A program made the position numbers and the translations under genes. This document shows positions 22,161 through 64,000 of a DNA stretch of 64,000 nucleotides, piece by piece; the first letter of the stretch is position 1; each line of letters starts with the position of its first letter. The notes under the pieces are model-generated. The model made no database searches and had not been told where the DNA came from. It worked only from the letters and a program-made list of their open reading frames with translations. Origin of the DNA: Plumapathes pennacea (taxonomy: Eukaryota > Cnidaria > Anthozoa > Antipatharia > Myriopathidae); NCBI GenBank assembly GCA_964036295.1, contig OZ038463.1:13910069-13974068 (forward strand), written 5' to 3'.

Positions 22161-23091
<931 letters not shown>

Positions 23092-23094
23092 TTA

Positions 23095-24214: not shown

Positions 24215-24232
24215 TATATATATATATATATA

Positions 24233-26838: not shown

Positions 26839-26848
26839 TTTATATATA

Positions 26849-36793: not shown

Positions 36794-36942
36794 CCCAAAT
36801 GTCAGAGTAATAAAGTTCAGTTTTATACCTGAATTGTTGCCACTGGTTTTCGGCAGCCCATCGAGAGAGAATAAGATTATTCTTAGATTTACAATTAAGT
36901 TCGCCCTAAACGCAGCGCTGGCGAGTGCCAATTTAATGTTAA

Positions 36943-38928: not shown

Positions 38929-41431
38929 CTGCCAAGTGCAACTGAAAGAATTCATCTCAGACGAATAATGTGTCCAGCATAAACACGAGTCGAACCGAAC
39001 TTGGAAAGATCATTTTTATTTTTGAGAAGAATGACTAATGAGTTTTTATCGGCCATCTTGAAATTCTGGCGCCGACATTGTTATCGGTCCACCACCTCAT
39101 AATACAAGTCAGAACCGCTGCAAGCAAGTTGTTGTCTGATTTTTCAGCCACAATCAACACTCAGACGACTAATGCGTGTGGGGGCAAAGGGTGCCTCATA
39201 CTCTCTTAGTCCGGCAACACTGAAACATCATATGAATTTCGTTAAAATCACAAGAGCGACCGCGGCCGTAAGCAAAAGTGACTCATCAGCGTGGTTTGTC
39301 CTATAGTCCGCGTACACTAACCTATAAAAAACGGCTTAACTTATAATAGGCTTGGGGATAGAAATCGGTCCCAAATGTCAGAGTAATAAAGTTCAGTTTT
39401 ATACCTAAATTGTTGCCACTGGTTTTCGGCAGCCCATCGAGAGAATAAGATTATTCTTAGATTTACAATTAAGTTCGCCCTAAACGCAGCGCAGGCGAGT
39501 GCCAATTTAATGTTAAAGCGTTGCAGATCTTTCAATACAAAGCAAGTTTTCAATATTAAAATTGATAATCTCTTCAATATGGTGTTTTCTCGCACTGCTG
39601 ATTGAGTCTCTTCTTCAAAGTGAAATCTAACGCAAATTTGTTTGGCATTTGGTTGTGTTCGGTGCTGTAGTTAATTACACGTTGGTTTTAAAGGGGCCCT
39701 CTCACCCACAATCGTTTGCGCGCCAAAATCCTTGATCCGCCATTTTTTGGTCCCCCGAAAGTCGAAAGATGAATAGCAATCCACTTCCACCCGACTCGTT
39801 TGAGCAGGATATTTAGTTTTTCTTTTGTTTTTGTTTGTTTTTTGTTTTTATTACCTAAAAGTGCTACTTGCTTATTTTTCTTTCAATTTATTACGTTGCT
39901 TCGTGTTGGAAACCAAATTTAGCCAGATTTTTAAAATACATTTCTAGATGTAGACCGAAACATTGAGTTGGCTGAGAGGGCCCCTTAGGGAAGGCACCCT
40001 AAAACCACATCGAACTTTGAACAACGAACAGAGCAAGAATGTGACAGTTTGTTGTCGCATAGAGTCCGCGTCCATATAGCTCTAAAAGCGGTTTAACTTA
40101 GCGCTCTTCGGGATACAAATCGGTCCCAAATGTCAAAGTAAAACTACACAGTTTTATCTGTGTCTTACCTGAATTGTTGCCACTTGTTTTCGACAGCCCT
40201 TCTATAGAATAAGATTATTCTTAGATTTATAATTAAGTTCGCCCTAAACACAGTGCAGGCGGGTGCCAATTTAATATTACAGTGATGCAGATCTTTCAAT
40301 ACAAAGCAAGTCTTCAATATTAAAATGATTTTCTTCTCAATATGGTGTTTTCTTACACTTCTCATTGAATCTCTTCTTCAAAGTAAAACCTAATGCAAAT
40401 TTGTTTGGCTTCTGGTTGTGACCGGTGCTGTAGTTAATTACACGTTGGTTTTAATTGGGCCGTCTAACCCAAAGTCCTTTGCGCGTCGAAGTCCATGATC
40501 CATCTTTTTCAGGGTTCCCGAAAGTCTTCCAGCACTTCCACCCGTCTCGTTTGAGCAGGATATTAGTATTTTTTTCTTATCTAAAAGTGCTACTTGCCTA
40601 TTTTTCATTTGATTTATTACATTGTTTCGTGTTGAAAACCAAATTTAGCCAGAATACATTTCTAGATGTATGCAGAAACATTGAATTGGCTGAGAAGGCC
40701 CCTTATGGATGTCATCCCAAAACCACATCGAACTTTGAACAACGAACGAAGCCAGAATGTGACAGTTTGTCGGATAGAGTCCACGTCCACATAGCTATAA
40801 AAGGGGTTGAATTTAGCCTGGGAATACAAATCCTTCCCAAATGTCCGAGTAATAAAAATTCAGTTTTATTGGTTTCTTACCTGAGCAGCTCCTCTGGAGA
40901 ATAAGATTATTCTTAGATTTACAGTTAAGTTTGCCGTAAACACAGCGCAGGTGAGTGCCAATTTAATATTACAGACCTTTCAATACAAAGCAAGTCTTCA
41001 ATGTTAACAATGATATTCTTCTCAATATAGTGTTTTCCCATACTGTTGATTGAGTCTCTTGTTCAAAGTAAAACCTAATGCAAATTTGTTTGATTTCTGG
41101 TTGTGAGCGGTGCTGTAACTAAGTACACGTTGATTTCAAGGAAGTCATTCCAAGACCACATCGAACATTGAACAACGAACGAAGCCAGAATGTGAATTGC
41201 CAGCAAACTTTTATATTTTGAATATATTTTGTCAAACATTGACCAATCAGCGACGAAGTTCAGATTCTGAGGTCATGGAAGTGAGGTTGCTACCTCGGGC
41301 GCCCAGAGGTCCTTTCCGCTCGCTTCGTCGCCGCCGTTCTTGTTGGAAAACTCTTGAAGGAGTACTATCAGGACCTCCTGGTCGCTTACCGGAGATTAAA
41401 AACAGTAGAAAACGGTGAGCCTCAAAGGTGG
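38929..41431. repeat. Satellite unit U2 (~2.5 kb, three monomers)
   Basis: Complete unit with monomers a (TATA-like at 39322), b (CTCTAAAAG at 40080) and c (CTATAAAAGG at 40794). The monomers share GTTTTCGGCAGCC, GAATAAGATTATTC, ATACAAAGCAAGTCTTCAAT and GCAAATTTGTTTG blocks. The unit ends with a GTGAGGTTGCTACCTCGGGC block, which marks the site where the retrotransposon is inserted in U3 and U4. Confidence 0.85.
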
Positions 41432-43790
41432 TCTGCCAAGTGCAACTGAAAGAATTCATCTCAGACGAATAATGTGTCCAGCATAAACACGAGTCGAACC
41501 GAACTTGGAAAGATCATTTTTATTTTTGAGAAGAATGACTAATGAGTTTTTATCGGCCATCTTGAAATTCTGGCGCCGACATTGTTATCGGTCCACCACC
41601 ATTCTAATACAAGTCAGAACCGCTGCAAGCAAGTTGTTGTCTGATTTTTCAGCCACAATCAACACTCAGACGACTAATGCGTCCGAAGCAAAGGGTGCCT
41701 CATACTCTCTAGTCCGGCAACGGTGAAACATCATATGAATTTCTTTAAAATCACAAGAGCGACCGCGGCCGTAAGCACAAGTGACTCATCAGCGTGGTTT
41801 GTCTTAGAGTCCGCGTCCACTAAGCTATAAAATACGGCTCAACTTATAATAGGCTTGGGATACAAATCGGTCCCAAATGTCAGAGTAATAAAGTTCAGTT
41901 TTATACCTGAATTGTTGCCACTGGTTTTCGGCAGCCCATCGAGAGAGAATAAGATTATTCTTAGATTTACAATTAAGTTCGCCCTAAACGCAGCGCAGGC
42001 GAGTGCCAATTTAATGTTAAAGTGTTGCAGATCTTTCAATACAAAGCAAGTCTTCAATATTAAAATTATTGATAATCTCTTCAATGTGGTGTTTTCTCGC
42101 ACTGCTGATTGAGTCTCTCCTTCAAAGTGAAATCTAACGCAAATTTGTTTGGCTTCTGGTTGTGTTCGGTGCTGTAGTTAATTACACGTTGGTTTTAAAG
42201 GGGCCCTCTCACCCACAATCGTTTGCGCGCCAAAATCCTTGATCCGCCATTTTTTGGTCCCCCGAAAGTCGAAAGATGAATAGCAATCCACTTCCACCCG
42301 ACTCGTTTGAGCAGGATATTTAGTATTTTTTTTTGTTTTTTTTTTTTGTTTTTTGTTTTTTGTTTTACCTAAAAGTGCTACTTGCTCATTTTTCTTTCAA
42401 TTTATTACGTTGCTTCGTGTTGGAAACCAAATTTAGCCAGATTTTTAAAATACATTTCTAGATGTAGACCGAAACATTGAGTTGGCTGAGAGGGCCCCTT
42501 AGGGAAGGCACCCTAAAACCACATGGAACTTTGAACAATGAACAGAGCAAGAATGTGACAGTTTGTTGTCGCATAGAGTCCGCGTCCATATAGCTCTAAA
42601 AGCGGTTTAACTTAGCGCTCTTCGGGATACAAATCGGTCCCAAATGTCAAAGTAAAACTACACAGTTTTATCTGTGTCTTACCTGAATTGTTGCCACTGG
42701 TTTTCAGCAGCCCTTCTATAGAATAAGATTATTCTTAGATTTATAATTAAGTTCGCCCTAAACACAGTGCAGGCGGGTGCCAATTTAATATTACAGTGAT
42801 GCAGATCTTTCAGTACATAGGAAGTCTTCAATATTAAAATGATTTTCTTCTCAATATGGTGTTTTCTTATACTTCTCATTGAATCTCTTCTTCAAAGTAA
42901 AACCTAATGCAAATTTGTTTGGCTTCTGGTTGTGACCGGTGCTGTAGTTAATTACACGTTGGTTTTAATTGGGCCGTCTAACCCAAAGTCCTTTGCGCGT
43001 CGAAGTCCATGATCCATCTTTTTCAGGGTTCCCGAAAGTCTTCCAGCACTTCCACCCGTCTCGTTTGAGCAGGATATTAGTATTTTTTTCTTATCTAAAA
43101 GTGCTACTTGCCTATTTTTCATTTGATTTATTACATTGTTTCGTGTTGAAAACCAAATTTAGCCAGAATACATTTCTAGATGTATGCAGAAACATTGAAT
43201 TGGCTGAGAAGGCCCCTTATGGATGTCATCCCAAAACCACATCGAACTTTGAACAACGAACGAAGCCAGAATGTGACAGTTTGTCGGATAGAGTCCACGT
43301 CCACATAGCTATAAAAGGGGTTGAATTTAGCCTGGGAATACAAATCCTTCCCAAATGTCCGAGTAATAAAAATTCAGTTTTATTGGTTTCTTACCTGAGC
43401 AGCTCCTCTGGAGAATAAGATTATTCTTAGATTTACAGTTAAGTTTGCCGTAAACACAGCGCAGGTGAGTGCCAGTTTAATATTACAGACCTTTCAATAC
43501 AAAGCAAGTCTTCAATGTTAACAATGATATTCTTCTCAATATAGTGTTTTCCCATACTGTTGATTGAGTCTCTTGTTCACTAATGCAAATTTGTTTGATT
43601 TCTGGTTGTGATCGGTGCTGTAACTAAGTACACGTTGGTTTCAAGGAAGTCATTCCAAGACCACATCGAACATTGAACAACGAACGAAGCCAGAATGTGA
43701 ATTGCCAGCAAACTTTTATATTTTGAATATATTTTGTCAAACATTAACCAATCAGCGACGAAGTTCAGATTCTGAGCTCATGGAAGTGAG
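41432..43790. repeat. Satellite unit U3, interrupted by BEL element copy 1
   Basis: Same order as U2, with monomers a (41825), b (42594) and c (43310) very close to those of U2. It is cut at 43790 by the retrotransposon directly after GGAAGTGAG. Confidence 0.85.
43305..43440 (+). ncRNA. Candidate TATA-plus-three-hairpin block (representative of 13 in the satellite array)
   Basis: A TATA-like box (CTATAAAAGG) is followed about 25 bases on by hairpin 1 (TGGGAA...TTCCCA), hairpin 2 (AATAAAA, six-base loop, TTTTATT), a TTACCTGA block, and hairpin 3 (GAATAAGATTATTC). Equivalent blocks start near 36701, 39322, 41825, 52158 and 62462 (type a), 40080, 42594, 52916 and 63219 (type b), and 38291, 40794 and about 53625 (type c). 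Stem sequences differ between types but stay paired. It may be a small structured RNA with its own promoter, or an LTR-like promoter/poly-A relic, since hairpin 2 of types a and c contains AATAAA. No expression evidence exists here. Confidence 0.3.
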
Positions 43791-44413
43791 TGGTACAGAT
43801 GCGGAGACGACGAATTACCGGCCTCAAGGATCTCCTAATAATAATCTTTATTGAAAAGATGTGATTCTGAAACAAGAAACAACACTCCAATCGTATTCGG
43901 GCTTGATACAATCTTTGAACGACAACGAAACTAAGAAACCAAGTACTAAGCGAGAAGCGAACCGAACACAATCGTGAAACAAACGAATATAAATCATTGT
44001 TACCTGAAGGGTGAATCCTTGCGCGGTAAAATCCTTAATTTGCTTGAAAAGAATTAAATCCTGAACAATAAAACTCTCACAAAGTAAAACGCTACCTTCT
44101 CGGCAAAAAGTGTAAACATAGATGATGACGAACAACAACGTCAACTCACGTCATCGTGCAAGCCCGCGCGTGGGCAGCGGTGACAACGAAGAAAAACATG
44201 GTGCTAAAACAAATGCAACGAGCGTTTCGAACTATCTAGCAATGATGAGTTTAGTTGATCTGACCGATAGCTATACTGAACTGCAATAGACGGAGGAACC
44301 AAACTGAATTATCATTGACAAAGGTAATTCTCGATTCAATACTCGATCGTTTGGAAACGTCAAAACTTGATCGTTCGGAAACGTCAAAATGCAATGTCAA
44401 ACTGTTCACAACA
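43791..44413 (-). repeat. 3' LTR of BEL copy 1
   Basis: About 623 bases, matching 49946-50697 apart from the hairpin insertion found only in the 5' LTR and one 24-base internal repeat unit (ACGTTTCCGAACGATC context). Confidence 0.85.
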
Positions 44414-44446
44414 AATCCTCCGGGGCCAAAGTTCAACTGCGGGACA

Positions 44447-45961
44447 TCACTTGGCCTCATGGATGACGCAGCACTTCTGTATGGACCGTTTGTACTCGCC
44501 GTTCCTGGTATTCACCTGGACATTTCTGACAACACCATCTGAACCTGGGAAAACTTGCTGCACGCTAGCCAAGTCCCATTTGCGACGGGGTGCATTGTAA
44601 TCCACTAACAACACGATGTCACCAACACTCATCTGTCGTCCTGTGGACTGCCACTTTGCCTTCCTCATCAACGTCGGTACATATTCTCTAATAAATCTTC
44701 TCCAGAAGTGTTGCGCAAGGCTCTGCACAAACTGGAAGCGTCTTCTGGGGTTCCTGGACTCTTCAAAGGGGCCTTGCGGGACCAACGATGACGCGCGACC
44801 AAGAATGAAATGATTTGGAGTGAGCGGTTGCGGGTCGTTTGGATCATTGGAGGGGTAACCCAAAGTTCTTCTATTGACAAGGGTCTTCACCTCAGCAAAC
44901 ACTGTCGCCATCTCGTTCCAGGACAGCACTTGGGTTCCCACTGCGACATGAAGAGCTCGTTTTGTTTGCTTGATTAGGCTCTCGTAGATGCCTCCTTGAT
45001 GAGGGCTGAGGGGGGTGGTGAAGATCCATCGTATCTTATGGAGGACAGCGAAATCTTGAAGTTGCTTTCTGCCTTCCACGACCAACTTCCTGAGCTCCTT
45101 CTCAGCTCCGACAAATGACTTTCCGTTGCCTGAGATGATCGTCGTCGGCCATCCGTTGTACGACGCAAAACGTCTAAGAGCTTGGAGGAAGGCTTCGCTG
45201 GATGGGTTTTCCACTATCTCGAGGTGGATTGCGCGTACAGTTGCACATGTGAACAACGCTCCCCAGGCTTTAGCAGACTTGTTCCTGCCAACCTTTAAGT
45301 TGAATGGGCCAAACAGATCAACTCCTGTGACTGTAAATGGAGGGGAGAACGGCTTGATCCTCTCTGGGGGCAGATCGGCCATCAAAGTCGCGTGAGGTGG
45401 CTGGCGTAGCTTGCGGTAGACTATACAATTCCTGGCAATGTACTTCGCAAGGTTTCGTCCACGCACGATCCAGTACTGTCGGCGACTTTCACTCAGCGTT
45501 CTCTCACGTCCGGCATGGGACAACTTCTGATGGACATCTTCCAGGATCAGTTTGGAGATGTGATGCTCTGCTGGGAGGAGGATGGGGTAAATCTGATCAT
45601 ATGTGAGCTGCGATTTCTTCAGTCGACCTCCAACTCTGATGATGCCATCTCCTACAAACGGATTCAGGTCCTGGTGCTTTTTCTGCCAGTCCCCAAGATC
45701 TCTCTGTGCCTCTACAACCCAGTAGCGCTCAGCAGATGTGATCTCCTCAGGCTGCAACGGTCCACTCTGGTGTTCTGTTGGGTCATCACGGCTTGCTTTC
45801 ATGTTGTTCAGGAAGCGCAGAGTGTAAGCGGTGACTCGCGTCAGCTTGGTCCAACTTGAGTAGGCTTGCGGGTCAATCACCGGCGTCGTACGACTGACAG
45901 CACCAATGGCCTTTGTCTTCTTTCTTTCTGGGTCGTCTTTCACTGGCTCGTTATCTCCCAC
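44447..45961 (-). pseudogene. BEL copy 1 integrase region
   Basis: An open stretch of 504 codons with the N-terminal zinc-binding region, the integrase core and a C-terminal tail (GDIVLLVDYNAP). Integrase normally joins element DNA to the host chromosome using a D-D-E triad. The first Asp (about residue 215, TGVDLFG) and the Glu (about 327, GGIYESL) are present. The second Asp is Gly (about 278, IISGNGKSF). In the zinc-binding part the last Cys of the usual CxxC is Tyr (NCIVYRKL). Both changes are shared with copy 2. It is joined to RNase H by a frame change near 45965. Confidence 0.85.
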
Positions 45962-45968
45962 TGGCCAT

Positions 45969-46842
45969 TCATCTTTGCTTTTCTTCAGGAAGGATGGTCC
46001 GTTTTTCCATCGGCCACCTTTTTATTTCCTCAACGAGGATCCCGCGACTCAGATCGTCAGCTGGGTTGAGATTGGTGGGTACGTACTTCCAGAAACTTGG
46101 GTCCCAGGTTGATTGGATCTCTGTAACGCGTACTCCGACAAAAGCCTTCAGTGTGGCAGATTCGGACCAAAGCCAGTGGAGAACAATCTTGGAATGTGAC
46201 CACAGTGTGACGAAGGACGGTTTGGTCTTGAACTCGTCATGGATCACTTTTGCCAGTCGTGAGGCAACCAGTGCAGCCATGAGCTCAAGCCGAGGAATCG
46301 TAGTCTGACGAAGTGGAGATACTCTTGCCTTGGCTGAGACTAACTGGACTTCTGGGCCATTCGGGGTGGGCCACAGGAGGTAGGCTACTGCTCCATATGC
46401 AGCTGCGCTTGCGTCAGCGAAGACGTGCAGCTCAGATGGGCCGACACTGTCTCAGGCTGTAGGCATCTCGGAATCTGACGCTCTTCAGCTTCTCGACTTC
46501 TCTGAGCAAATTGCTCCAGCGTTCACTCATTTCATCAGGGAGGGGATCATCCCAGTCGTACTGCTTTGCCCGCCAAATATCCTGGAGCGCGATTTTGGTC
46601 TTGATTGTGACTGCAGATGCCAATCCCAGGGGATCATACAGCTTGGAAATGCTTGACAGAACTGTTCTCTTGGTGAGCCTCTCGACCTTGATCTCCTTCA
46701 CAGCAAAGTTTAACTTGTCGTTGTGTGGGTTCCAGCCAACTCCTAAGGTCTTGATACCTTTCTCTCCATCCAAGTTGATGCTGGTTAGTGCGTCTTGTTC
46801 TGACTTCGCTCCAATCCCACTCTGTTCTTGGGACGGGCTCAT
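45969..46842 (-). pseudogene. BEL copy 1 Pao-type connection and RNase H region
   Basis: The segment 46432-46842 has the conserved Pao block (TKRTVLSSISKLYDPLGLAS and WDDPLPDEMSERW). RNase H follows in other frames, with FADAS near 46420 and PRLELMAALVASRLAKVI near 46280, then WKYVPTNLNPADDLSRG. RNase H removes RNA from the DNA hybrid during reverse transcription. A one-base deletion relative to copy 2 near 46473 adds another frame break in this copy. Confidence 0.75.
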
Positions 46843-47770
46843 ATTGGACTTTGCAATGGGCTTTGTGGCTTTGGCTCCGTAACATTGGTTATTGTGACGC
46901 CAGGTTCTCTTGCCAGCTCATCTCGGACCATTTGTGAGGAGCATAGCCATTCCTTGATCTCGAAGCTGCCTGTAGCTAGCACTCTGTCCAGCTGTTTGGT
47001 ACGCTGGATGGCTTCTTTTGGTGTTTGGCAAGAGTGTATCAGGTCATCCATGTACCGGTCTCGCCTAAGTACAACTGCGGCGTCTGGGTTGTCGGCCTCA
47101 TTATCTTTGGCAATCTTGAGCATAACGAAGCTCGCCATATCGGGTGACGGCTTGTCACCAAAGGTAACCCTCTGTAAGGCGTAGACTTTGGGGTCCCTAG
47201 TCTGATCCAGATTTCTCCAGAGGAATCGGTGGACTTAAGTGTCTTCTTCTGGAAGGCAAATCTGCAGGAGCATCTTAGAGATGTCTCCAACGAAACCAAC
47301 GGGCTCTTCTTGAAAACAAAGAAGGACTCCCAGGAGATTTCCAATCAAGCCTGGGCCTTTGTGCAGGAAATAGTTCAAGGAAACACCTTGATACTGGCAT
47401 GCTGGATCAAATATGATTCTTAGGGGCGTGCTCTTCTTCTCTGGTCGATAAATCCCACGATGACTCAGATAATAGACTGGCTTGGTGTCTGCTTCTAACT
47501 CTTGCTTGTTCAGAGGTCGGGCTCAGCCATTCTTCTCGTAGTTCATCAACACGTCTTCGTACATCTTGGCCTTTGTATTGTTCTTCAGGAGGCTCCTTTC
47601 CTGCACAGCAGTCTCCTTTCGGCCAGAGCGTAGTTGTTTGGCAGGAGGCGCTTATCCTTCTTCCAGGGGAGGCCAATCGTGTATCGAGTGCCCTGGCGTT
47701 CACAAGACGCCTCCATCAGCTCATCGCTTTCCTGTCGTCGGGTGACATGGCTGGTTTCGGGCAGGAGCAA
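46839..47770 (-). pseudogene. BEL copy 1 reverse transcriptase region, broken
   Basis: The catalytic box RYMDDLIHS lies near 47050 and a motif-A-like GDISKML near 47290. The upstream linker (YTIGLPWKKDKRLLPNNYAL) is in another frame. Compared with copy 2 there are two extra in-frame stops: a TAA at 47235-47237 where copy 2 has Gln, and a TGA at 47523-47525 where copy 2 has Trp. Confidence 0.8.
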
Positions 47771-47794
47771 TCTGGGGCTTGAATCCCAAGTGTC

Positions 47795-49885
47795 TCAAGA
47801 TCGTAGAATAATCTCCAAGTTCAGCGGCTGTACGAAACTTATGGAACATATGGTGGGTATTCTCCTCTGGTCGTCCGATCCGATGACAAACCATCCCAAC
47901 TTGGTCTTCTTGCCAACGGGTTCAAATGGCTGACCTTGACGGGTCTCGTCTTCTGCGTGCAGGTGACTGTACTGCACTCCCAATATGAGGTCAACTGGAC
48001 CAGCCTTGTGGGGGAATTCCACATCTCTTAATTGGGAAAACGATTTCAGCCACTGGCGGTTTAGGGCAGGTACGCTGAGAATTGTCTTCTCTATCTCGTG
48101 CGCTTCTATCTTGAATTCTTCGCTGCGATCCAAAGCAGATATCCAGAAGCTGACTCTTCTGCTCTTCGGCTGCTCCACTCTCTCTCCACCAACAACTGCC
48201 AGGTTGATTTGTTCTCTTTTGCCTTGCAATCCAAGGGCTTTAGCGAAGTCTCGTCGGATTACTGTGGTTCCTGATCCGCTGTCGATTAGGGTGTTTCCCT
48301 CGCGAACTCTACCATTTTCTGCTCTGAAGCGAACTCTCACCACTGGCATGATACTGTTGCAGTCCAAAACCGATGCGACTCCGCTCGACGTGGGTGGGTC
48401 AGTATGCAGGAGGGGATGGTGAAAGCGATTGCATCCGTTCTTCTCGCATCTCTTCCTCGATCTGCAATCTCTTGTCATGTGGCCTTTGATCAGACACGAG
48501 AAGCATAGCCTGGCGTTCTTTACAGAATCGAAGCATTCGCTCGTTGTGGAGTCGGCCAGTGTGGGGCAATCTGGGACCTTGTGCTCTCCCTCACACAAGT
48601 AGCATTTCTTCCTGCTCACATTCCTTTGTGTAGCGTGAATTCCTCGTCGACTTTTGCGGACGATTCCACTGCCTGAATCGGTCTTGTTATGGCTCCTTAT
48701 TTCTTTCTCCACGTCTCCGAAATCTGGATCAAACTCGGCCTTGACGCGTTTCCGGCCGAAGTCGCTGATGTGCTGCAAGGCTGAAATCTGGCCTTTCTCT
48801 CGAATGTCAGCAACGACGGATTTCCATTTTTGGACCAAGTGATCAGGAAAGCGCATGACAACTTTTCTAAGGTTGTCATTTGCGTTGAGATCTGCGTCGT
48901 ACTTGATTTGCTGGATAGTTGCCAAGCAATTAATGATGTCGAGTGAAAACTCTCGCAAGGCTTGTCGGTTGTTCTTCTGGATTCTCTCTCCCTTCGTTAG
49001 CTTGTTTATCACTGACCTAGCTATCTGACTTGGCTGTCCAAATTGTTCCTTTAGAGTCTTCAGCGCTGTGGGATACATAACGCCTTTCGACCCAAAACCA
49101 GAAATAGCTCTTTCGGCCTCGCCAACCACGTGCATTTTGAGCTGAATCATCCTCATGTCGTCTTTGAGATGCTTCTTGTCATGGATGTGGATCTTGAAAC
49201 GATCAATGAAATCCGAGCCGTATGACAGCGCAGATCCGTCGAATTGTGGAAGCTTTACAGACGGAATGTCTTTGCTGGCTTCAAGCTTGAATAGTGCGTC
49301 AGCTACTGTGAGAACTCCGGCTCCGGGCTCTTGCTCTTGCAAAACTATTTCTTGAAATTCTACGAGATCGTCAATCCAGGCGTCAAAGGACCGTGGTACT
49401 GGCTGTCCGGCTGAGTTTACAACGAATGGAAGTTGTGGAAGAGAAGACGATTGTTGCTGCTGTTGCTCCGGCTGGCTAATTTCTCCCTGGGCGTTGCTGT
49501 TTGAGGCGATGCTACCAGCGCTTGCACTGCTGTCTGATTGAAGTGTCGCTTGAGAAGCAGAACCGTGGACGAGGGTGGCCAGATAATCTTCAACCTCTTC
49601 TTCAATAGCGAAGACAGCATTTGCTAAGTCGCCCTCCCATTTGTCCATCGCAACATTGTGAGTTTCATCCAAGAGGTCATAAAGCTGTCCGTGAAAGTCA
49701 GAGGTGGCATCATAGTCACGTCGCAATTGCCCCAACTCCTTTTTGAAGCGTTTTGAGTTGCCCTCACCTTTGCTAATTGACTGCTTTACTCTGTTAATTG
49801 TTCTTGTAATCTTGCAGCGCAACTGCTTTCTTTTGTTCTTGATTTCTACGGCCTCTGTGTCCGTGTCTGTGTCTGCGTCTGACAT
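47795..49885 (-). pseudogene. BEL copy 1 gag-protease reading frame
   Basis: A 696-codon frame starting MSDADTDTDTEAVEIKNKRK. The N-terminal half is a coiled-coil, Gln/Ser-rich capsid region (SVKLPQFDGSAL; KTLKEQFGQP; KLTKGERIQ). Zinc knuckles follow from about residue 428 (CYLCEGEHKVPDC and CFSCLIKGHMTRDC). A retropepsin-type protease follows with LIDSGSGTTVI (Asp about residue 535) and LILGVQYSHL. The gag part packages element RNA and the protease matures the polyprotein. The frame ends at a stop just after the protease, where the pol frame should continue, because of a one-base shift also seen in copy 2. Confidence 0.88.
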
Positions 49886-49945
49886 CTCCAGTTGTGTGCT
49901 AAATCTTGCCTGCTACGTCGACGCTTTGTTTCCTTCAGAAAATTT

Positions 49946-50697
49946 TGTACAGATGCGGAGACGACGAATTACCGGCCTCAAGGATCTCCTAATAATAATC
50001 TTTATTGAAAAGATGTGATTCTGAAACAAGAAACAACACTCCAATCGTATTCGGACTTGATACAATCTTTGAACGACAACGAAACTAAGAAACCAAGTAC
50101 TAAGCGAGAAGCGAACCAAACACAATCGTGAAACAAACAAATATAAATCATTGTTACCTGAAGGGTGAATCCTTGCGCGGTAAAATCCTTAATTTGCTTG
50201 AAAAGAATTAAATCCTGAACAATAAAACTCTCACAGAGTAAAACGCTACTTTCTCGGCAAAAAGTGTAAACATAGATGATGACGAACAACAACGTTAACT
50301 CACGTCATCGTGCGAGCTCGCGCGTGGGCAGCGGTGACAACGAAGAAAAACATGGCGCTGAAACGAATGCAACGAGCGCTCCGAAATATCTAGCAATGAT
50401 GAGTTTAGTTGATCTGACCGATAGCTATACTGAACTGCAATAGACGAAGGAACCAAACTGATTTATCATTGACAAAGGTAGGTTGGTTGTGATCGTCCGG
50501 GTTAGAGTAGTCTCCAGAAAGACTGTTGTTGGTCACCAACAACAGTCTTTCTGGAGACTACTTTAACCCGGACGATCACAACCAACCTACTGTTCACACT
50601 CCTGGGTTCAAACCATTTGCCACTGACAAAGGTAATTAATTGTTCAATACTCGATCGTTCGGAAACGTCAATATGCAATGTCAAACTGTTCAGAACA
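49946..50697 (-). repeat. 5' LTR of BEL copy 1, with a hairpin insertion
   Basis: About 752 bases; 143 of them (50481-50623) are an insertion absent from the 3' LTR. It has one copy of the 24-base internal repeat where the other three LTRs have two. Confidence 0.85.
50479..50623. mobile_element. Palindromic insertion in the 5' LTR (copy 1)
   Basis: Arms 50479-50533 and 50535-50589 (55 bases each, one mismatch) pair around a single C, followed by a ~34-base tail containing GGGTTCAAACC. The insert is flanked by TGACAAAGGTA at 50470-50480 and 50624-50634. It is absent from both left LTRs. Confidence 0.85.
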
Positions 50698-50702
50698 GTG
50701 AG

Positions 50703-51733
50703 GTTGCTACAATCATGGTCAAAATTGTTGGGACGATTTCAAATTTACCCCCTCCCCCCATTCAATGTTGGGTATTTGAGCATGGTTCGGCTTATAGCTG
50801 CACCACGGGCCAACATTGAATGGAGGGGAGGGGGAGGGACTTGAAAACAAGAAATATGAGACCCCCATAGGTTGTACGGATTTACATTGTGCTCCGGATG
50901 TGCGTAAGAGGAGCGTCCCGACGACTTTTGACCATGATTGTCTGAAAACGGTAAAAAATGTTTAAACGCTTCTGGAACTAAGGGGAAAAGAGCTACAACC
51001 ACCAAACTCGGGCATGTTTAGGAGTGCTCTATAGAGAAGACAACTGTGATTTCAGAATTGGTTGAAGTCCATTCACAAACGTATATAATATTTGACCGTT
51101 AAGTGCCGATTGCATTACTTAAAGCCGTTTTGTCACATTGTGTGCTTAGGAACTGTATTCTGCCTGATATCAGAGCATCATGCAGTGTAACAAGCATGCG
51201 ATACGTGTTTCAGACCTCGGAGATAACAGTTTCATTCTTTTTATTAGCCGGTACCATATTCTCGAGTGAAATTTGATTCTTTGTTTGACCTCGTCTGGGC
51301 CAGTTTGTCATTGCTCCCATCAATACTCCACAGTAAAATGCTGAATACAAAAAATTCAAGACATTTTCAACAAAACTATAAACGCAATATGTTTGACAAA
51401 CGTTAGGTAAATCTTTCAATGCATTTTTTACTAATTTCACGACAGAATTTTTTGTGTTTAGAACATTACTCCCTTGTAGACAAACAAAGAAGTTGAATCT
51501 AATTATCTCTTTTGTTGTTGTTCAGCGGAGTATTGTTGTTTTTCCTTCTATACGAGGGAAACATTAAGCGGATTATGCACCAATATGGGCTTTAGATATA
51601 ACTATTCCCGGTAATACACTTTTCCAGTTTTTAACTGTTTTAAAACGGCCGAATTTGACAACAAACAACGGAGTATTGTCTGGTGTAATGTTGAGCAATC
51701 TCCGTGTGACGTCACATGAACAGTTGTCGCCGC
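50703..51733. repeat. Spacer segment of the 10.3-kb repeat, with a small TIR element
   Basis: This segment replaces about 100 bases of the ordinary satellite unit just after GGTTGCTAC. It starts with an inverted-repeat element (AATCATGGTCAAAA at 50711, complement ending 50939) with a second inner inverted repeat around CAACATTGAATGGAGGGG. The rest is non-coding. It is repeated at 61007-62037. Confidence 0.7.
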
Positions 51734-54090
51734 CGGAGATTAAAAACAATAAAAAACGGTGAGCCTCAAAGGTGGTCTGCCAAGTGCAACTGAAAGAATT
51801 CATCTCAGACAAATAATGTGTCCAGCATAAACACGAGTCGAACCGAACTTGGAAGGATCATTTTGAGAAGAATGCCTAATGAGCTTTTATCGGATATCTT
51901 GAAATTCTGGCGCCGATATTGATATCGATTCCACCATAACACAAATCAGAACCGCTGCAAGTAAGTTGCTGTCTGATTTTTCAGCCACAATCAACACTCA
52001 GACGACTAATGTGTCCGAAGCAAAGGGTGCCTCATACTCTCTTAGTCCTGCAACACTGAAACATTATATGAATTTCGTTAAAATCACAAGAGCGACCGAG
52101 GCCGTAAGCACAAGTGACTCATCAGCGTGGTTTGTCCTATAGTCCGCGTCCACTAAGTTATAAAAAAACGGCTCAACTTATAATAGGCTTGGGGATATAA
52201 ATCGGTCCCAAATGTCAGAGTAATAAAGTTCAGTTTTATACCTAAATTGTTGCCACTGGTTTTCGGCAGCCCCTCAAGAGAGAATAAGATTATTCTTAGA
52301 TTTACAATTACGTTCGCCCTAAACGCAGCGCAGGCGAGTGCCAATTTAATGTTAAAGTGTTGCAGATCTTTCAATACAAAGCAAGTCTTCAATATTAAAG
52401 TTAATAATCTCTTCAATAAGGTGTTTTCTCGCACTGCTGATTGAGTCTCTCCTTCAAAGTGAAATCTAACGCAAATTTGTTTGGCTTCTGGTTGTGTTCG
52501 GTGCTGTAGTTAATTACACGTTGGTTTTAAAGGGGCCCTCTCACCCACAATCTTTTGCGCGCCAAAATCCTTGATCCGCCATTTTTTAGTCCCCCGAAAG
52601 TCGAAAGATGAATAGCAATCCACTTCCACCCGACTCGTTTGAGCAGGATATTTATTTTTTTAAATTATTTATTTATTTTTTTATTTTTACCTAAAAGTGC
52701 TACTTGCTAATTTTTTTTTTCAATTTATTACGTTGTTTCGTGTTGGAAAGCAAATTTAGCCAGATTTTTAAAATACATTTCTAGATGTAAACCGAAACAT
52801 TGAGTTGGCTGAGAGGCCCCTTAGGGAAGTCACCCTAAAACCACATCGAACTTTGAACAACAAACGGAGCAAGAATGTGACAGTTTGTTGTCGCATAGAG
52901 TCCACGTCCATATAGCTCTAAAAAGCGGTTTAACTTAGGCTCTTCGGGATACAAATCGGTCCCAAATGTCAAAGTAAAACTACACAGTTTTATCAGTGTC
53001 TTACCTGAATTGTTGCCACTGGTTTTCAGCAGCCCTTCTATAGAATAAGATTATTCTTAGATTTATAGTTAAGTTCGCCCTAAACCCAGTACAGGCGGGT
53101 GCCAATTAAATATAGTGATGCAGATCTTTCAATACAAAGCAAGTCTTCAATATTAAAATGATTTTCTTCTCAATATGGTGTTTTCTTACACTTCTCATTG
53201 AATCTTTTCTTCAAAGTAAAACCTAATGCAAATTTGTTTGGCTTCTGGTTGTGACCGGTGCTGTAGTTAATTACACGTTGGCCTTAATTGGACCGTCTCA
53301 CCCACTGTCTTTTGCGCGTCGAAGTCCATGATCCATCTTTTTCAGGGTTCCTGAAAGTCTTCCACCACTTCCACCCGACTCGTTTGAGCAGGATATTAGT
53401 ATTTTTTCTTACTTAAAAGTGCTACTTGCCTATTTTTCGTTTGATTTATTACATTGTTTCGTGTTGAAAACCAAATTTAGCCAGATTTTTAAATACATTT
53501 CTTGATGTATGCAGAAACAATGAATTGGCTGAGAAGGCCCCTTAAGGATGTCATCCAAAAACCACATCGAACTTTGAACAACGAACGAAGCCAGAATGTG
53601 ACAGTTTGTCGCATAGAGTCCACGTGGGAACACAAATCGTTCCCAAATGTCCGAGTAATAAAAATTCAGTTTTATTGGTTTTTTACCTGAGCAGCTCCTC
53701 TGGAGAATAAGATTATTCTTAGATTTACAGTTAAGTTCGCCCTAAACACAGCGCAGGTGAGTGCCAATTTAATATTACAGACCTTTCAATACAAAGCAAG
53801 TCTTCAATGTTAACAATGATATTCTTCTCAATATAGTGTTTTCTCATCTGTTGATTGAGTCTCTTGTTCAAAGTAAAACCTAATGCAAATTTGTTTGATT
53901 TCTGGTTGTGATCGGTGCTGTAACTAAGTACACGTTGGTTTCAAGGAAGTCATCCCAAGACCACATCGAACATTGAACAACGAACGAAGCCAGAATGTGA
54001 ATTGCCAGCAAACTTTTATATTTTGAATATATTTTGTCAAACATTAACCAATCAGCGACGAAGTTCAGATTCTGAGCTCATGGAAGTGAG
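51734..54090. repeat. Satellite unit U4, interrupted by BEL element copy 2
   Basis: Monomers a (TATA-like at 52158), b (52916) and c (about 53625). Monomer c has lost its TATA box through a ~33-base deletion, though its first hairpin is kept (GGGAAC...GTTCCC). The unit ends at 54090 with the same GGAAGTGAG before the second retrotransposon. Confidence 0.85.
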
Positions 54091-54697
54091 TGGTACAGAT
54101 GCGGAGACGACGAATTACCGGCCTCAAGGATCTCCTAATAGTAATCTTTTATTGAAAAGATGTGATTCTGAAACAAGAAACAACACTCCAATCGTATTCG
54201 GGCTTGATACAATCTTTGAACGACAACGAAACTAAGAAACCAAGTACTAAGCGAGAAGCGAACCGAACACAATCGTGAAACAAACAAATATAAATCATTG
54301 TTACCTGAAGGGTGAATCCTTGCGTGGTAAAATCCTTAATTTGCTTGAAAAGAATTAAATCCTGAACAATAAAACTCTCACAAAGTAAAACGCTACTTTC
54401 TCGGCAAAAATGTGAACATAGATGATGAAGAACAACAACGTGCGAGTCCGCGCGTGGGCAGCGGTGACAACGAAGAAAAACATGACGCTGAAACGAATGC
54501 AACGAGCGTTCCGAAATATCTAGCAATGATGAGTTTAGTTGATCTGACCGATAGCTATACTGAACTGCAATAGACGAAGGAACCAAACTGAATTATCATT
54601 GACAAAGGTAATTAATTGTTCAATACTCGATCGTTTGGAAACGTCAAAACTTGATCGTTCGGAAAAGTCAAAATTCAATGTCAAACTGTTCACAACA
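54091..54697 (-). repeat. 3' LTR of BEL copy 2
   Basis: About 607 bases, without the hairpin insertion. It has a small deletion relative to copy 1 near 54438 (the CGTCATCGTG stretch is missing). Confidence 0.85.
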
Positions 54698-54730
54698 AAT
54701 CCTCCGGGGCCAAAATTCAACTGCGGGACA

Positions 54731-56242
54731 TCACTTGGCCTCATGGATGACGCAGCACTTCTGTATGGACCGTTTGTACTCGCCGTTCTTGGTCTTCACC
54801 TGGACATTTCTGACAACACCATCTGAACCTGGGATAACTTGTTGCACGCGACCCAAGTCCCATTTGCCACGGGGTGCATTGTAATCCACTAACAACACGA
54901 TGTCGCCAACACTCATCTGTCGTCCTGTGGACTGCCACTTTGCCCTCCTCATCAACGTCGGTACATATTCTCTGATAAATCTTCTCCAGAAGTGTTGCGC
55001 AAGGCTCTGCACAAACTGGAAGCGTCTTCTGGGGTTCCTGGACTCTTCAAAGGGGCCTTGCGGGACCAACGATGACGCGCGACCATGAATGAAATGATTT
55101 GGAGTAAGCGGTTGCGGGTCGTTTGGATCATTGGAGGGGTAACCCAAAGGTCTGCTATTGACAAGGGTCTTCACCTCAGAAAACACTGTCGCCATCTCGT
55201 TCCAGGACAGCACTTGGGTTCCCACTGCGACATGAAGGGCTCGTTTTGTTTGCTTGATTGGGCTCTCGTAGATGCCTCCTTGATGAGGGCTGAGGGGGGT
55301 GGTGAAGATCCATCGTATCTTATGGAGGACAGCGAAATCTTGAAGTTGCTTTCTGCCTTCCACGACCAACTTCCTGAGCTCCTTCTCAGCTCCGACAAAT
55401 GACTTTCCGTTGCCTGAGATGATCGTCGTCGGCCATCCGTGGTACGACGCAAAACGTCTAAGAGCTTGGAGGAAGGCTTCACTGGATGGGTTTTCCACTA
55501 TTTCGAGGTGGATTGCGCGTACAGTTGCACATGTGAACAACGCTCCCCAGGCTTTAGCAGACTTGTTCCTGCCAACCTTTAAGTTGAATGAGCCAAACAG
55601 ATCAACTCCTGTGACTGTGAATGGAGGGGAGAACGGCTTGATCCTCTCTGGGGGCAGATCGGCCATCAAAGTCGCGTGAGGTGGCTGGCGTAGCTTGCGG
55701 TAGACTGTACAATTCCTGGCAATGTACTTCGCAAGGTTTTGTCCACGCACGATCCAGTACTGTCGGCGACTTTCACTCAGCGTTCTCTCACGTCCGGCAT
55801 GGGACAACTTCTGATGGACATCTTCCAGGATCAGTTTGGAGATGTGATGCTCTGCTGGGAGGATGGGGTGAATCTGATCATATGTGAGCTGCGATTTCTT
55901 CAGTCGACCTCCAACTCTGATGATGCCATCTCCTACAAACGGATTCAGGTCCTGGTGCTTTTTCTGCCAGTCCCCAAGATCTCTCTGTGCCTCTACAACC
56001 CAGTAGCGCTCAGCAGATGTGATCTCCTCAGGCTGCAACGGTCCACTCTGGTGTTCTGTTGGGTCATCACGGCTTGCTTTCATGTTGTTCAGGAAGCGCA
56101 GAGTGTAAGCGGTGACTCGCGTCAGCTTGGTCCAACTTGAGTAGGCTTGCGGGTCAATCACCGGCGTCGTACGACTGACAGCACCAATGGCCTTTGTCTT
56201 CTTTCTTTCTGGGTCGTCTTTCACTGGCTCGTTATCTCCCAC
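54731..56242 (-). pseudogene. BEL copy 2 integrase region
   Basis: 503 codons, very close to copy 1 (one codon shorter, HPILPAEHH). It has the same Gly at the second catalytic position (IISGNGKSF) and the same Tyr in place of the last zinc-binding Cys (NCTVYRKL). The first Asp and the Glu are kept. Few residues differ between copies, which fits recent duplication. Confidence 0.85.
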
Positions 56243-56249
56243 TGGCCAT

Positions 56250-57055
56250 TCATCTTTGCTTTTCTTCAGGAAGGATGGTCCGTTTTTCCATCGGCCACCT
56301 TTTTATTTCCTCAACGAGGATCCCGCGACTCAGATCGTCAGCTGGGTTGAGATTGGTGGGTACGTACTTCCAGAAACTTGGGTCCCAGGTTGATTGGATC
56401 TCTGTAACGCGTACTCCGACAAAAGCCTTCAGTGTGGCAGATTCGGACCAAAGCCAGTGGAGAACAATCTTGGAATTTGACCACAGTGTGACGAAGGACG
56501 GTTTGGTCTTGAACTCGTCATGGATCACTTTTGCCAGTCGTGAGGCAACCAGTGCAGCCATGAGCTCAAGCCGAGGAATCGTAGTCTGACGAAGTGGAGC
56601 TACTCTAGCCTTGGCTGAGACTAACTGGACTTCTGGGCCATTCGGGGTGGGCCACAGGAGGTAGGCTACTGCTCCATATGCAGCTCCGCTTGCGTCAGCG
56701 AAGACGTGCAGCTCAGATGGGCCGACACTGTCTCAGGCTGTAGGCATCTCGGGAATCTGACGCTCTTCAGCTTCTCGACTTCTCTGAGCAAATTGCTCCA
56801 GCGTTCACTCATTTCATCAGGGAGGGGATCATCCCAGTCGTACTGCTTTGCCCGCCAAATATCCTGGAGCGCGATTTTGGTCTTGATTGTGACTGCAGAT
56901 GCCAATCCCAGGGGATCATACAGCTTGGAAATGCTTGACAGAACTGTTCTCTTGGTGAGCCTCTCGACCTTGATCTCCTTCACAGCAAAGTTTAACTTGT
57001 CGTTGTGTGGGTTCCAGCCAACTCCTAAGGTCTTGATACCTTTCTCTCCATCCAA
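56250..57055 (-). pseudogene. BEL copy 2 Pao-type connection and RNase H region
   Basis: The Pao connection block and RNase H (FADASGAAYGAVAY near 56705, PRLELMAALVASRLAKVI) are present but lie in two frames, separated by a shift near 56725. A further frame change near 56250 separates RNase H from integrase. Confidence 0.75.
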
Positions 57056-57066
57056 ATTGATGCTGG

Positions 57067-58060
57067 TTAGTGCGTCTTGTTCTGACTTCGCTCCAATCCC
57101 ACTCTGTACTTGGGACGGGCTAATATTGGACTTTGCGATGGGCTTTGTGGCTTTGGCTCCGTAACATTGGTTATTGTGACGCCAGGTTCTCTTGCCAGCT
57201 CATCTCGGACCATTTGTGAGGAGCATAGCCATTCCTTGATCTCGAAGCTGCCTGTAGCTAGCACTCTGTCCAGCTGTTTGGTACGCTGGATGGCTTCTTC
57301 TGGTGTTTGGCAAGAGTGTATCAGGTCATCCATGTACCGGTCTCGCCTCAGTACAACTGCGGCGTCTGGGTTGTCGGCCTCATTATCTTTGGCAATCTTG
57401 AGCATAACGAAGCTCGCCATATCGGGTGACGGCTTGTCACCAAAGGTAACCCTCTGTAAGGCGTAGACTTTGGGGTCCCTAGTCTGATCCAGATTTCTCC
57501 AGAGGAATCGATGGACTTGAGTGTCTTCTTCTGGAAGGCAAATCTGCAGGAGCATCTTAGAGATGTCTCCAACGAAACCAACGGGCTCTTCTTGAAAACA
57601 AAGAAGGACTCCCAGGAGATTTCCAATCAAGCCTGGGCCTTTGTGCTGGAAAGAGTTCAAGGAAACACCTTGATACTGGCATGCTGGATCAAATATGATT
57701 CTTAGGGGCGTGCTCTTCTTCTCTGGTCGATATATCCCATGATGACTCAGATAGTAGACTGGCTTGGTGTCTGCTTCTAACTCTTGCTTGTTCAGAGGTC
57801 GGGCCCAGCCATTCTTCTCGTAGTCCATAAAAAAGGTCTTCGTACATCTTGGCCTTTGTATTGTTCTTCAGGAGGCTCCTTTCCTGCACAGCAGTCTCCT
57901 TTCGGCCAGAGCGTAGTTGTTTGGCAGGAGGCGCTTATCCTTCTTCCAGGGGAGGCCAATCGTGTATCGAGTGCCCTGGCGTTCACAAGACGCCTCCATC
58001 AGCTCCATCGCTTTCCTGTCGTCGGGTGACATGGCTGGTTTCGGGCAGGAGCAATCTGGG
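57067..58060 (-). pseudogene. BEL copy 2 reverse transcriptase region
   Basis: One open frame (57067-57828) spans the polymerase core, with FVGDISKML (motif A Asp) and RYMDDLIHS (catalytic box). Upstream, the linker YTIGLPWKKDKRLLPNNYAL is in a different frame and stops near 57880. An A/T-rich change near 57830 replaces residues seen in copy 1. The enzyme would copy element RNA to DNA if intact; here it cannot be made as one product with gag. Confidence 0.82.
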
Positions 58061-58078
58061 GCTTGAATCCCAAGTGTC

Positions 58079-60166
58079 TCAAGATCGTAGAATAATCTCC
58101 AAGTTCAGCGGCTGTACGAAACTTATGGAACATATGGTGGGTATTCTCCTCTGGTCGTCCGATCCGATGACAAACCATCCCAACTTGGTCTTCTTCCCAA
58201 CGGGTTCAAATGGCTGACCTTGACGGGTCTCGTCTTCTGCGTGCAGGTGACTGTACTGCACTCCCAGTATGAGGTCAACTGGACCAGCCTTGTGGGGGAA
58301 TTCCACATCTCTTAAGTGGGAAAACGATTTCAGCCACTGGCGGTTTAGGGCAGGTACGCTGAGAATTGTCTTCTCTATCTCGTGCGCTTCTATCTTGAAT
58401 TCTTCGCTGCGATCCAAAGCAGATATCCAGAAGCTGACTCTTCTGCTCTTCGGCTGCTCCACTCTCTCTCCACCAACAACTGCCAGGTCAATTCGTTCTC
58501 TTTTGCCTTGCAATCCAAGGGCTTTAGCGTCTCGTCGGATTACTGTGGTTCCTGCTCCGCTGTCAATTAGGGTGTTTCCCTCGCGAACTCTACCATTTTC
58601 TGCTCTGAAGCGAACTCTCACCACTGGCATGATACTGTTGCGGTCCAAAACCGATGCGACTCCGCTCGACGTGGGTGGGTCAGTATGCAGGAGGGGATGG
58701 TGAAAGCGATTGCATCCGTTCTTCTCGCATCTCTTCCTCGATCTGCAATCTCTTGTCATGTGGCCTTTGATCAGACACGAGAAGCATAGCCTGGCGTTCT
58801 TTACAGAATCGAAGCATTCGCTCGTTGTGGAGTCGGCCAGTGTGGGGCAATCTGGGACCCTGTGCTCTTCCTCACACAAGTAGCATTTCTTCCTGCTCAC
58901 ATTCCTTTGTGTAGCGTGAATTCCTCGTCGACTTTTGCGGACAATTCCACTGCCTGAATCGGTCTTGTTATGGCTCCTTATTTCTTTCTCCACGTCTCCG
59001 AAGTCTGGATCAAACTCGGCCTTGACGCGTTTCCGGCAGAAGTCGCTGATGTGCTGCAAGGCTGGAATCTGGCCTTTCTCTCGAAGTTCAGCAACGACGG
59101 ATTTCCATTTTTGGACCAAGTGATCAGGAAAGCGCATGACAACTTTTCTAAAGTTGTCATTTGCGTTGAGATCTGCGTCGTACTTGATTTGCTGGATAGT
59201 TGCCAAGCAATTAATGATGTCGAGTGAAAACTCTCGCAAGGCTTGTCGGTTGTTCTTCTGGATTCTCTCTCCCTTCGTTAGCTTGTTTATCACTGACCTA
59301 GCTATCTGACTTGGCTGTCCAAATTGTTCCTTTAGAGTCTTCAGCGCTGTGGGATACATAACGCCTTTCGACCCAAAACCAGAAATAGCTCTTTCGGCCT
59401 CGCCAACCACGTGCATTTTGAGCTGAATCATCCTCATGTCGTCTTTGAGATGCTTCTTGTCATGGATGTGGATCTTGAAACGATCAATGAAATCCGGGCC
59501 GTATGACAGCGCAGATCCGTCGAATTGTGGAAACTTTACAGACGGAATGTCATTGCTGGCTTCAAGCTTGAATAGTGCGTCAGCTACTGTGAGAACTCCG
59601 GCTCCGGGCTCTTGCTCTTGCAAAACTGTTTCTTGAAATTCTACGAGATCGTCAATCCAGGCGTCAAATGACCGTGGTACTGGCTGTCCGGCTGAGTTTA
59701 CAACGAATGGAAGTTGTGGAAGAGAAGACGATTGTTGCTGCTGTTGCTCCGGCTGGCTAATTTCTCCCTGGGCGTTGCTGTTTGAGGCGATGCTACCAGC
59801 GCTTGCACTGCTGTCTGATTGAAGTGTCGCTTGAGAAGCAGAACCGTGGACGAGGGTGGCCAGATAATCTTCAACCTCTTCTTCAATAGCGAAGACAGCA
59901 TTTGCTAAGTTGCCCTCCCATTTGTCCATCGCAACATGGTGAGTTTCATCCAAGAGGTCATAAAGCTGTCCGTGAAAGTCAGAGGTGGCATCATAGTCAC
60001 GTCGCAATTGCCCCAACTCCTTTTTGAAGCGTTTTGAGTTGCCCTCACCTTTGCTAATTGACTGCTTTACTCTGTTAATTGTTCTTGTAATCTTGCAGCG
60101 CAACTGCTTTCTTTTGTTCTTGATTTCTAGGGCCTCTGTGTCCGTGTCTGTGTCTGCGTCTGACAT
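58079..60166 (-). pseudogene. BEL copy 2 gag-protease reading frame
   Basis: 695 codons, colinear with copy 1. The protease motif is LIDSGAGTTVI, the usual D-S-G-A form, and one Phe codon (DFAKALGL in copy 1) is deleted nearby. The first zinc knuckle is CYLCEEEHRVPDC. It ends at the same stop after ILRS as copy 1. Confidence 0.88.
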
Positions 60167-60225
60167 CTCCAGTTGTGTGCTAAATCTTACCTGCTACGTC
60201 GACGCTTTGTTCCTTCAGAAAATTT

Positions 60226-61001
60226 TGTACAGATGCGGAGACGACGAATTACCGGCCTCAAGGATCTCCTAATAATAATATTTATTGAAAAGATGTGATT
60301 CTGAAACAAGAAACAACACTCCAATCGTATTCGGACTTGATACAATCTTTGAACGACAACGAAACTAAGAAACCAAGTACTAAGCGAGAAGCGAACCGAA
60401 CACAATCGTGAAACAAACGAATATAAATCATTGTTACCTAAAGGGTGAATCCTTGCGCGGTAAAATCCTTAATTTGCTTGAAAAGAATTAAATCCTGAAC
60501 AATAAAACTCTCACAGAGTAAAACGCTACTTTCTCGGCAAAAAGTGTAAACATAGATGATGACGAACAACAACGTTAACTTACGTCATCGTGCGAGCCCG
60601 CGCGTGGGCAGCGGTGACAACGAAGAAAAAAATGGCGCTGAAACGAATGCAACGAGCGTTCCGAAATATCTAGCAATGATGAGTTTAGTTGATCTGACCG
60701 ATAGCTATACTGAACTGCAATAGACGAAGGAACCAAACTGATTTATCATTGACAAAGGTAGGTTGGCTGTGATCGTCCGGGTTAGAGTAGTCTCCAGAAA
60801 GACTGTTGTTGGTCACCAACAACAGTCTTTCTGGAGACTACTTTAACCCGGACGATCACAACCAACCTACTGTTCACACTCCTGGGTTCAAACCATTTGC
60901 CACTGACAAAGGTAATTAATTGTTCAATACTCGATCGTTTGGAAACGTCAAAACTCGATCGTTCGGAAACGTCAATATGCAATGTCAAACTGTTCAGAAC
61001 A
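60226..61001 (-). repeat. 5' LTR of BEL copy 2, with the same hairpin insertion
   Basis: About 776 bases with the 143-base palindromic insert at 60761-60903, flanked by TGACAAAGGTA as in copy 1, and two copies of the 24-base internal repeat. Confidence 0.85.
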
Positions 61002-61006
61002 GTGAG

Positions 61007-62037
61007 GTTGCTACAATCATGGTCAAAATTGTTGGGACGATTTCAAATTTACCCCCTCCCCCCATTCAATGTTGGGTATTTGAGCATGGTTCGGCTTATA
61101 GCTGCACCACGGGCCAACATTGAATGGAGGGGAGGGGGAGGGACTTGAAAACAAGAAATATGAGACCCCCATAGGTTGTACGGATTTACATTGTGCTCCG
61201 GATGTGCGTAAGAGGAGCGTCCCGACGACTTTTGACCATGATTGTCTGAAAACGGTAAAAAATGTTTAAACGCTTCTGGAACTAAGGGGAAAAGAGCTAC
61301 AACCACCAAACTCGGGCATGTTTAGGAGTGCTCTATAGAGAAGACAACTGTGATTTCAGAATTGGTTGAAGTCCATTCACAAACGTATATAATATTTGAC
61401 CGTTAAGTGCCGATTGCATTACTTAAAGCCGTTTTGTCACATTGTGTGCTTAGGAACTGTATTCTGCCTGATATCAGAGCATCATGCAGTGTAACAAGCA
61501 TGCGATACGTGTTTCAGACCTCGAAGATAACAGTTTCATTCTTTTTATTAGCCGGTACCATATTCTCGAGTGAAATTTGATTCTTTGTTTGACCTCGTCT
61601 GGGCCAGTTTGTCATTACTCCCATCAATACTCCACAGTAAAATGCTGAATACAAAAAATTCAAGACATTTTCAACAAAACTATAAACGCAATATGTTTGA
61701 CAAACGTTAGGTAAATCTTTCAATGCATTTTTTACTAATTTCACGACAGAATTTTTTGTGTTTAGAACATTACTCCCTTGTAGACAAACAAAGAAGTTGA
61801 ATCTAATTATCTCTTTTGTTGTTGTTCAGCGGAGTATTGTTGTTTTTCCTTCTATACGAGGGAAACATTAAGCGGATTATGCACCAATATGGGCTTTAGA
61901 TATAACTATTCCCGGTAATACACTTTTCCAGTTTTTAACTGTTTTAAAACGGCCGAATTTGACAACAAACAACGGAGTATTGTCTGGTGTAATGTTGAGC
62001 AATCTCCGTGTGACGTCACATGAACAGTTGTCGCCGC
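61007..62037. repeat. Second copy of the 10.3-kb repeat spacer
   Basis: Nearly identical to 50703-51733, including the TIR element (61015-61243). Confidence 0.8.
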
Positions 62038-63956: not shown

Positions 63957-64000
63957 TAGAAGTGCCACAAGTGTGGTACTATGACGTCACAAATGTAGTG
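63957..64000. mobile_element. Fragment of repeat R2 at the window end
   Basis: Matches the end of both R2 copies (15227-15265 and 33885-33915). Whether it continues beyond the window is unknown. Confidence 0.6.

Follow-up and report, generated by a model that had tools for sequence, protein, structure and literature searches.

The window analysed here is the whole stretch of 64,000 nucleotides, C2:13910069-13974068, which lies within a 290-Mb assembly of 24 contigs; positions are counted from its first letter unless coordinates of the contig C2 are named. Its right part holds a run of 2.5-kb units, two of which carry an element of the BEL/Pao type at their right end. The first unit, U1 (36308-38784), is partial and rearranged, being composed of U2 positions 143-733, about 0.5 kb of other sequence, and positions 729-1035 and 1485-2504. 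It is followed by U2 (38785-41288), a full unit of 2,504 bp, and by U3 (41289-43790), also a full unit, which matches U2 at 97.3%. Element copy 1 (43791-50697; 6,907 bp) stands at the right end of U3, and a spacer of about 1 kb (50706-51732) leads from it into U4 (51733-54090; unit positions 101-2501). The same order is then repeated, with element copy 2 (54091-61001; 6,911 bp), a second spacer (61010-62036) and the last unit, U5 (62037-63959; positions 101-2032), which runs into a flank common to paralogous loci. Both element copies are on the minus strand, have TG...CA ends and are bordered on either side by GTGAG (43786-43790 with 50698-50702, and 54086-54090 with 61002-61006). As a preliminary description of this DNA had noted, they sit at one base of the unit between identical target duplications. 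Neither Rfam nor tRNA scanning of the window yielded a match. Open frames with PAN domains were seen inside the window and just beyond it, and one frame of the F5/8 type C lies beyond it.

The self-alignment that had been suggested as a check was performed with BLAST and revealed a direct repeat of 10.3 kb, in which 53625-63925 corresponds to 43333-53620 with 97.5% identity over 10,334 columns. The periodicity is nested: diverged sub-repeats of about 750 bp lie within the 2.5-kb unit, and the unit lies within the 10.3-kb composite. The 10.3-kb offset reported for all landmarks is +10,300 between the left LTR edges and +10,304 between the right ones, and the latter value is also obtained where the spacers end (51732 and 62036). 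The break in the BLAST alignment at 53625 is not a junction of the duplication. We considered it as such and rejected it, as alignment of U1-U5 with two paralogues showed an in-register deletion of about 33 bp within U4, at approximately 53624.

We searched nine frames, five from copy 1 and four from copy 2, against the Pfam profiles. DUF1759 (2e-10), Peptidase_A17 (to 2e-24), DUF5641 (to 6e-31) and Integrase_H2C2 (1e-6) scored over the cut-off, and three further domains scored under it: Asp_protease_2 (24.0 and 17.8 bits, cut-off 24.3), RVT_1 (20.7 and 22.4 bits, cut-off 29.6) and rve (16.7 and 16.0 bits, cut-off 32.6). In copy 1, whose LTRs are at 43791-44413 and approximately 49944-50697, an open gag-protease frame of 705 aa (47798-49912, minus strand) contains DUF1759 and the Asp_protease_2 segment that falls slightly under the cut-off, while Peptidase_A17, Integrase_H2C2, the weak rve and DUF5641 segments are distributed over several frames of the minus strand at 44450-46917. 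The modules, among them Peptidase_A17 (Pao) and DUF1759/DUF5641, follow the order gag-PR-RT-A17-INT, which is the arrangement of BEL/Pao LTR retrotransposons. The 5-bp duplications, GTGAG at both copies and ATGCT at a relative on contig C3, together with the TG...CA ends, agree with the TG/CA ends and target duplications of 4-6 bp given for LTR retrotransposons in general in a passage of PMC8220671. In all features that were tested it behaves as an ordinary member of BEL/Pao, with nothing unusual seen; it differs in that pol is split over several frames in both window copies. The earlier identification of a dead BEL/Pao element is thus borne out by its domain content and its broken pol.

What had been called the spacer is indeed the same after both element copies, but it proved to be the left part, about 1 kb, of a dispersed transposon. 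Scoring of the best 40 of 551 first-look candidates gave at least 40 matches to its sequence, with identities of 93-100%; two of these lie in the window. Its ends were compared with two relatives by direct reading. The left end is alike in these relatives, and sequence common to both of them continues beyond the right end of the spacer, where 128 of 156 positions are alike without gaps. In the window the spacer is truncated on the right and joined to unit position 101, two bases (CC) fitting either side of the junction; the roughly 95 unit bases that separate GTTGCTAC from position 101, next to the insertion site, are absent there. A palindromic MITE of 145 bp lies between TGACAAAGG repeats in the right LTR, both in copy 1 (50479-50623) and, at the same place, in copy 2 (60759-60903). 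Among the 26 LTR matches listed (40 of 1,263 candidates were scored), only these two right LTRs contain it.

The locus had been described as a satellite higher-order repeat whose array may continue beyond the window. Searches with the junctions of the composite found two composites only in the assembly. The contiguous stretch of 231,931 bases that surrounds the window likewise holds two only, and it has zero N. Neither an extended array nor a higher-order repeat is therefore upheld. The term satellite fails as well: five paralogous places were inspected, and each has one unit only, accompanied at some of them by small partial repeats. Long unit matches outside the window were confined, among the matches scored, to C2 13.86-14.60 Mb; the best 40 of 1,645 candidates were scored, which gives a lower bound. 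At C2 coordinates 13865476, 14084582, 14322266 and 14381230 the left and right flanks of the window enclose one unit, with unit positions 143-452 partly repeated at three of these four places. At the fifth, 14394401, the unit and the right flank are present, and no left flank turned up in the sequence that precedes the unit. The run of about five units in the window (U1, which is partial, U2, U3, U4 and U5) is thus a local expansion within a single member of a cluster of segmental duplications. Satellite higher-order repeats resemble the locus in their nested periodicity; here, however, there are two composites and about five units, with no array, and the paralogous places that were inspected have one unit each. 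We thus rejected the birth of a satellite as a reading of this locus, which appears to be an ordinary local duplication and not a growing satellite array.

Several independent markers indicate that the two element copies share a common descent. The junction of the unit with the left LTR and the junction of the truncated transposon with the unit each have two matches in the assembly at up to 3 mismatches, and the junction of the LTR with the MITE has two at up to 2 mismatches; in all three cases both matches are in the window. In a piece of pol of 2,194 sites, compared with the relative on C3, the two window copies agree with each other against it at 51 sites, while 13 set copy 1 apart and 8 set copy 2 apart; the comparison is unrooted, so that some of the 51 uniting sites are changes of the C3 relative. 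Five single-base indels in pol are common to both copies in comparison with this relative, whose frame stays open over the whole piece. The pol lesions are older than the copying, and because these five indels are common to both copies the element was most likely already broken when it was copied. Since the MITE, the truncated transposon and the five pol lesions are all common to both copies, a single insertion with copying afterwards is well supported. The preliminary proposal of one insertion followed by duplication holds on this evidence.

The divergence within the elements bears on the order of events. The LTRs of copy 1 and copy 2 differ by 25/599 (4.2%) and 19/606 (3.1%), respectively, whereas the two right LTRs differ from each other by 9/754 (1.2%) and the internal regions by 76/5550 (1.37%); in the C3 relative the LTRs differ by 2/623. 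Because divergence between LTRs within a copy exceeds that between copies, the insertion is the older event; with equal rates, its age would be some two to three and a half times that of the copying. Divergence varies along the copied tract. The spacers differ by 2 substitutions in 1,039 aligned bases, fewer than the internal regions (Fisher p 2.6e-4), and a patch at 44.05-44.87 kb differs by about 4% between the copies. In this patch, relatives on C5, C3 and C11 match copy 1 at 95-96% and copy 2 at 94%, the other window copy matches at 94% in both, and neither copy is closer to its partner than to relatives on other contigs; a search for a donor found none closer than the general family. The left LTRs, L1 and L2, differ by 22/606, a larger distance than separates either of them from most of the other LTRs, and many of these differences form clusters found in L1 alone. 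They do not group together in comparison with the relative, which, like the unevenness of the tract, counts against the explanation that we favour.

We next consider how the second copy arose. U3-BEL-TE-U4 was aligned with U4-BEL-TE-U5 in 200-base windows, leaving out the last window of the series (29/171), which takes in the deletion of U4 and the point where homology ends; the units were compared without the T-rich tract at 52640-52725. Divergence was 94/2000 to the left of about 43.45 kb, was low until about 52.48 kb, and amounted to 47/1000 from there to 53.48 kb. Low divergence is thus confined to about 9 kb. Since this tract (about 9.0 kb) is shorter than one 10.3-kb period, the tandem duplication of element, spacer and whole unit that had been proposed is not the best fit, although copying as such stands. 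Both features of a tandem segmental duplication by NAHR, in-register homologous flanks and shared derived changes, were found, and we infer that recombination between units made the second copy.

The composition of U4 is informative as to the kind of recombination. Immediately to the right of the composite, at 51733-52250, U4 differs from U5 by 5/518 and from U3 by 32/515; at 52251-52480 the values are 6/230 and 7/230. The middle of U4 differs by 37/1030 from U5, 38/1027 from U3 and 37/1027 from U2, i.e., by about 3.6%, as against 1.37% in the element (Fisher p 5e-6 and 3e-6 for the two neighbours). To the left of the second composite, at 53626-53775, U4 differs from U3 by 6/150 and from U2 by 5/150, and at 53776-54090 by 2/306 and 6/315, respectively, so that few sites define the left edge of the tract, a further point against the favoured explanation. 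Because the middle of U4 is old with respect to both U3 and U5, and because the best single-crossover mosaic gives 53/2262 (2.34%) where the element has 1.37% (p 0.003, minimised over breakpoints), we prefer a conversion-like copying of a patch of about 9 kb over an unequal crossover with later conversion, and a plain single crossover is disfavoured. In the preferred form, the composite would have been conversion-copied between two pre-existing old units, and a dead element would thereby spread along a tandem run without transposition while the number of units is unchanged; we regard this form as tentative, with somewhat less than an even chance.

The other version of the same explanation is an unequal crossover of U5, to the right of the composite, with U3, to its left, which would add one period of 10.3 kb, followed by gene conversion that blurred the middle of U4. 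A crossover predicts that U4 is recent with U3 or U5 everywhere, and its middle is about equally far from both. On the other hand, the order U3-BEL-TE-U4-BEL-TE-U5 is the product of one in-register crossover, and at several sites in 53.33-53.62 kb U4 has bases of the U2/U3 type where U5 has those of the paralogues. Furthermore, U2 and U3 are close in their middle part (11/1033), as if homogenised. As divergence is uneven inside the copied tract too, the distance of the U4 middle is less telling than its p-value, and crossover with later conversion is a possible course of events, though less likely than not.

An unlikely alternative is that two haplotypes of a single element-bearing locus were laid in tandem by the assembly (false heterotype duplication). 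The 1.4% between the copies could be allelic, the cluster contains an identical pair (1,701/1,701) 199.4 kb apart that is either very recent or suspicious, and a gene falsely duplicated adjacent to itself is reported in a passage of PMC9516828. According to the same paper, false duplications can be told by gaps that separate the two copies, yet the contiguous bases around the locus are free of N. Moreover, a simple join of haplotypes would make U4 allelic-like to U3 or U5 throughout, and its middle is not so to either.

The empty site was said to survive in U1 and U2. Its sequence, GGAAGTGAGGTTGCTAC, is intact at 38773 and 41277, that is, at the left (38773-38789) and right (41277-41293) borders of U2, and at up to 3 mismatches it has 4 matches in the window, a number reached by 0/100 shuffles. 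It is not specific to these units, however, as it lies in a dispersed repeat, a 31-base pattern of which has 177 genome-wide matches at up to 3 mismatches. A preferred target, as in the site-specific elements of rDNA, is therefore conceivable, but two independent insertions at one base, considered unlikely from the outset, are extremely improbable and were rejected, as the junction of the unit with the left LTR is found nowhere outside the window at up to 3 mismatches, the C3 relative has a different target duplication, and the shared secondary changes (the MITE/LTR junction, the transposon/unit junction and the pol lesions) speak decisively against them.

Taken together, we favour one insertion and its copying by in-register recombination, of either kind, with a probability of about 0.75. 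A single BEL/Pao element would have inserted at the end of a unit of about 2.5 kb, in a small locus-specific run within a segmentally duplicated cluster. It would then have lost its pol frame and gained a MITE in one LTR, and a neighbouring dispersed transposon would have been truncated into the next unit. In-register homologous recombination of neighbouring units would subsequently have placed a second composite at the next unit border, the copied composite of about 9.0 kb comprising the unit end, the element, the truncated transposon and the start of the next unit. The element would thus have been multiplied by recombination, without transposition.

A parallel is offered by the human RCCX module. 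According to PMC8362596, successive modules of the tandem either carry the HERV-K(C4) provirus in intron 9 of C4 or lack it at that place, and unequal crossover and gene conversion act between modules. The two systems are alike in having tandem modules with and without an element at one place, a likeness of mechanism and not of family; they differ in that the module in our window has no recognised gene and that two modules are occupied.

If the conversion-like copying is true, conversion of the composite would be a first step to a transposon-bearing satellite, caught at two copies. The locus offers a datable case, with several independent markers, of recombination giving a dead element an additional copy. 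It also warns against inferring two transposition events merely from the presence of two full-length elements that have LTRs and target duplications.

The two BEL/Pao copies (window 43791-50697 and 54091-61001, minus strand) are ~4% divergent in one patch, window 44054-44870, which includes clusters of changes that only copy 1 has, in its left LTR; a donor of this patch was sought and none was found. Both copies carry a palindromic MITE of 145 bp (window 50479-50623 and 60759-60903), which is present at 14 more places, at 96-99%, among the matches listed. Its tail contains GGTTCAAACC, which is similar to a tRNA B box.

The empty-site sequence at the borders of U2, a full ~2.5-kb unit (window 38773-38789 and 41277-41293), belongs to a dispersed short repeat, with 177 genome-wide matches to a 31-base pattern. 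Several of the matches listed form inverted pairs with ~70-170 bp between the members, an arrangement similar to that of MITE ends. Within the unit, a ~300-bp piece (unit positions ~903-1202; U2, window 39687-39986) is dispersed over many contigs at 73-84% identity.

Elsewhere in the window, a 1.1-kb direct repeat (23087-24226 and 26839-27969, 97.6% identity) adjoins a 224-bp TA array (22877-23100).

Inside the segmental-duplication cluster, on contig OZ038463.1, L041 (14521600-14523300) and L032 (14318000-14327999) share a sequence identical at 1,701/1,701 bases, at a spacing of 199.4 kb; either the region was duplicated very recently or the assembly has falsely duplicated it. Minus-strand open frames at window 18946-19464 and at 7370-7888 and 6216-6563 of the stretch L015, both beyond the window, encode PAN domains at two places and, in one frame, an F5/8 type C domain; these frames are likely members of a duplicated cluster of secreted-protein genes.
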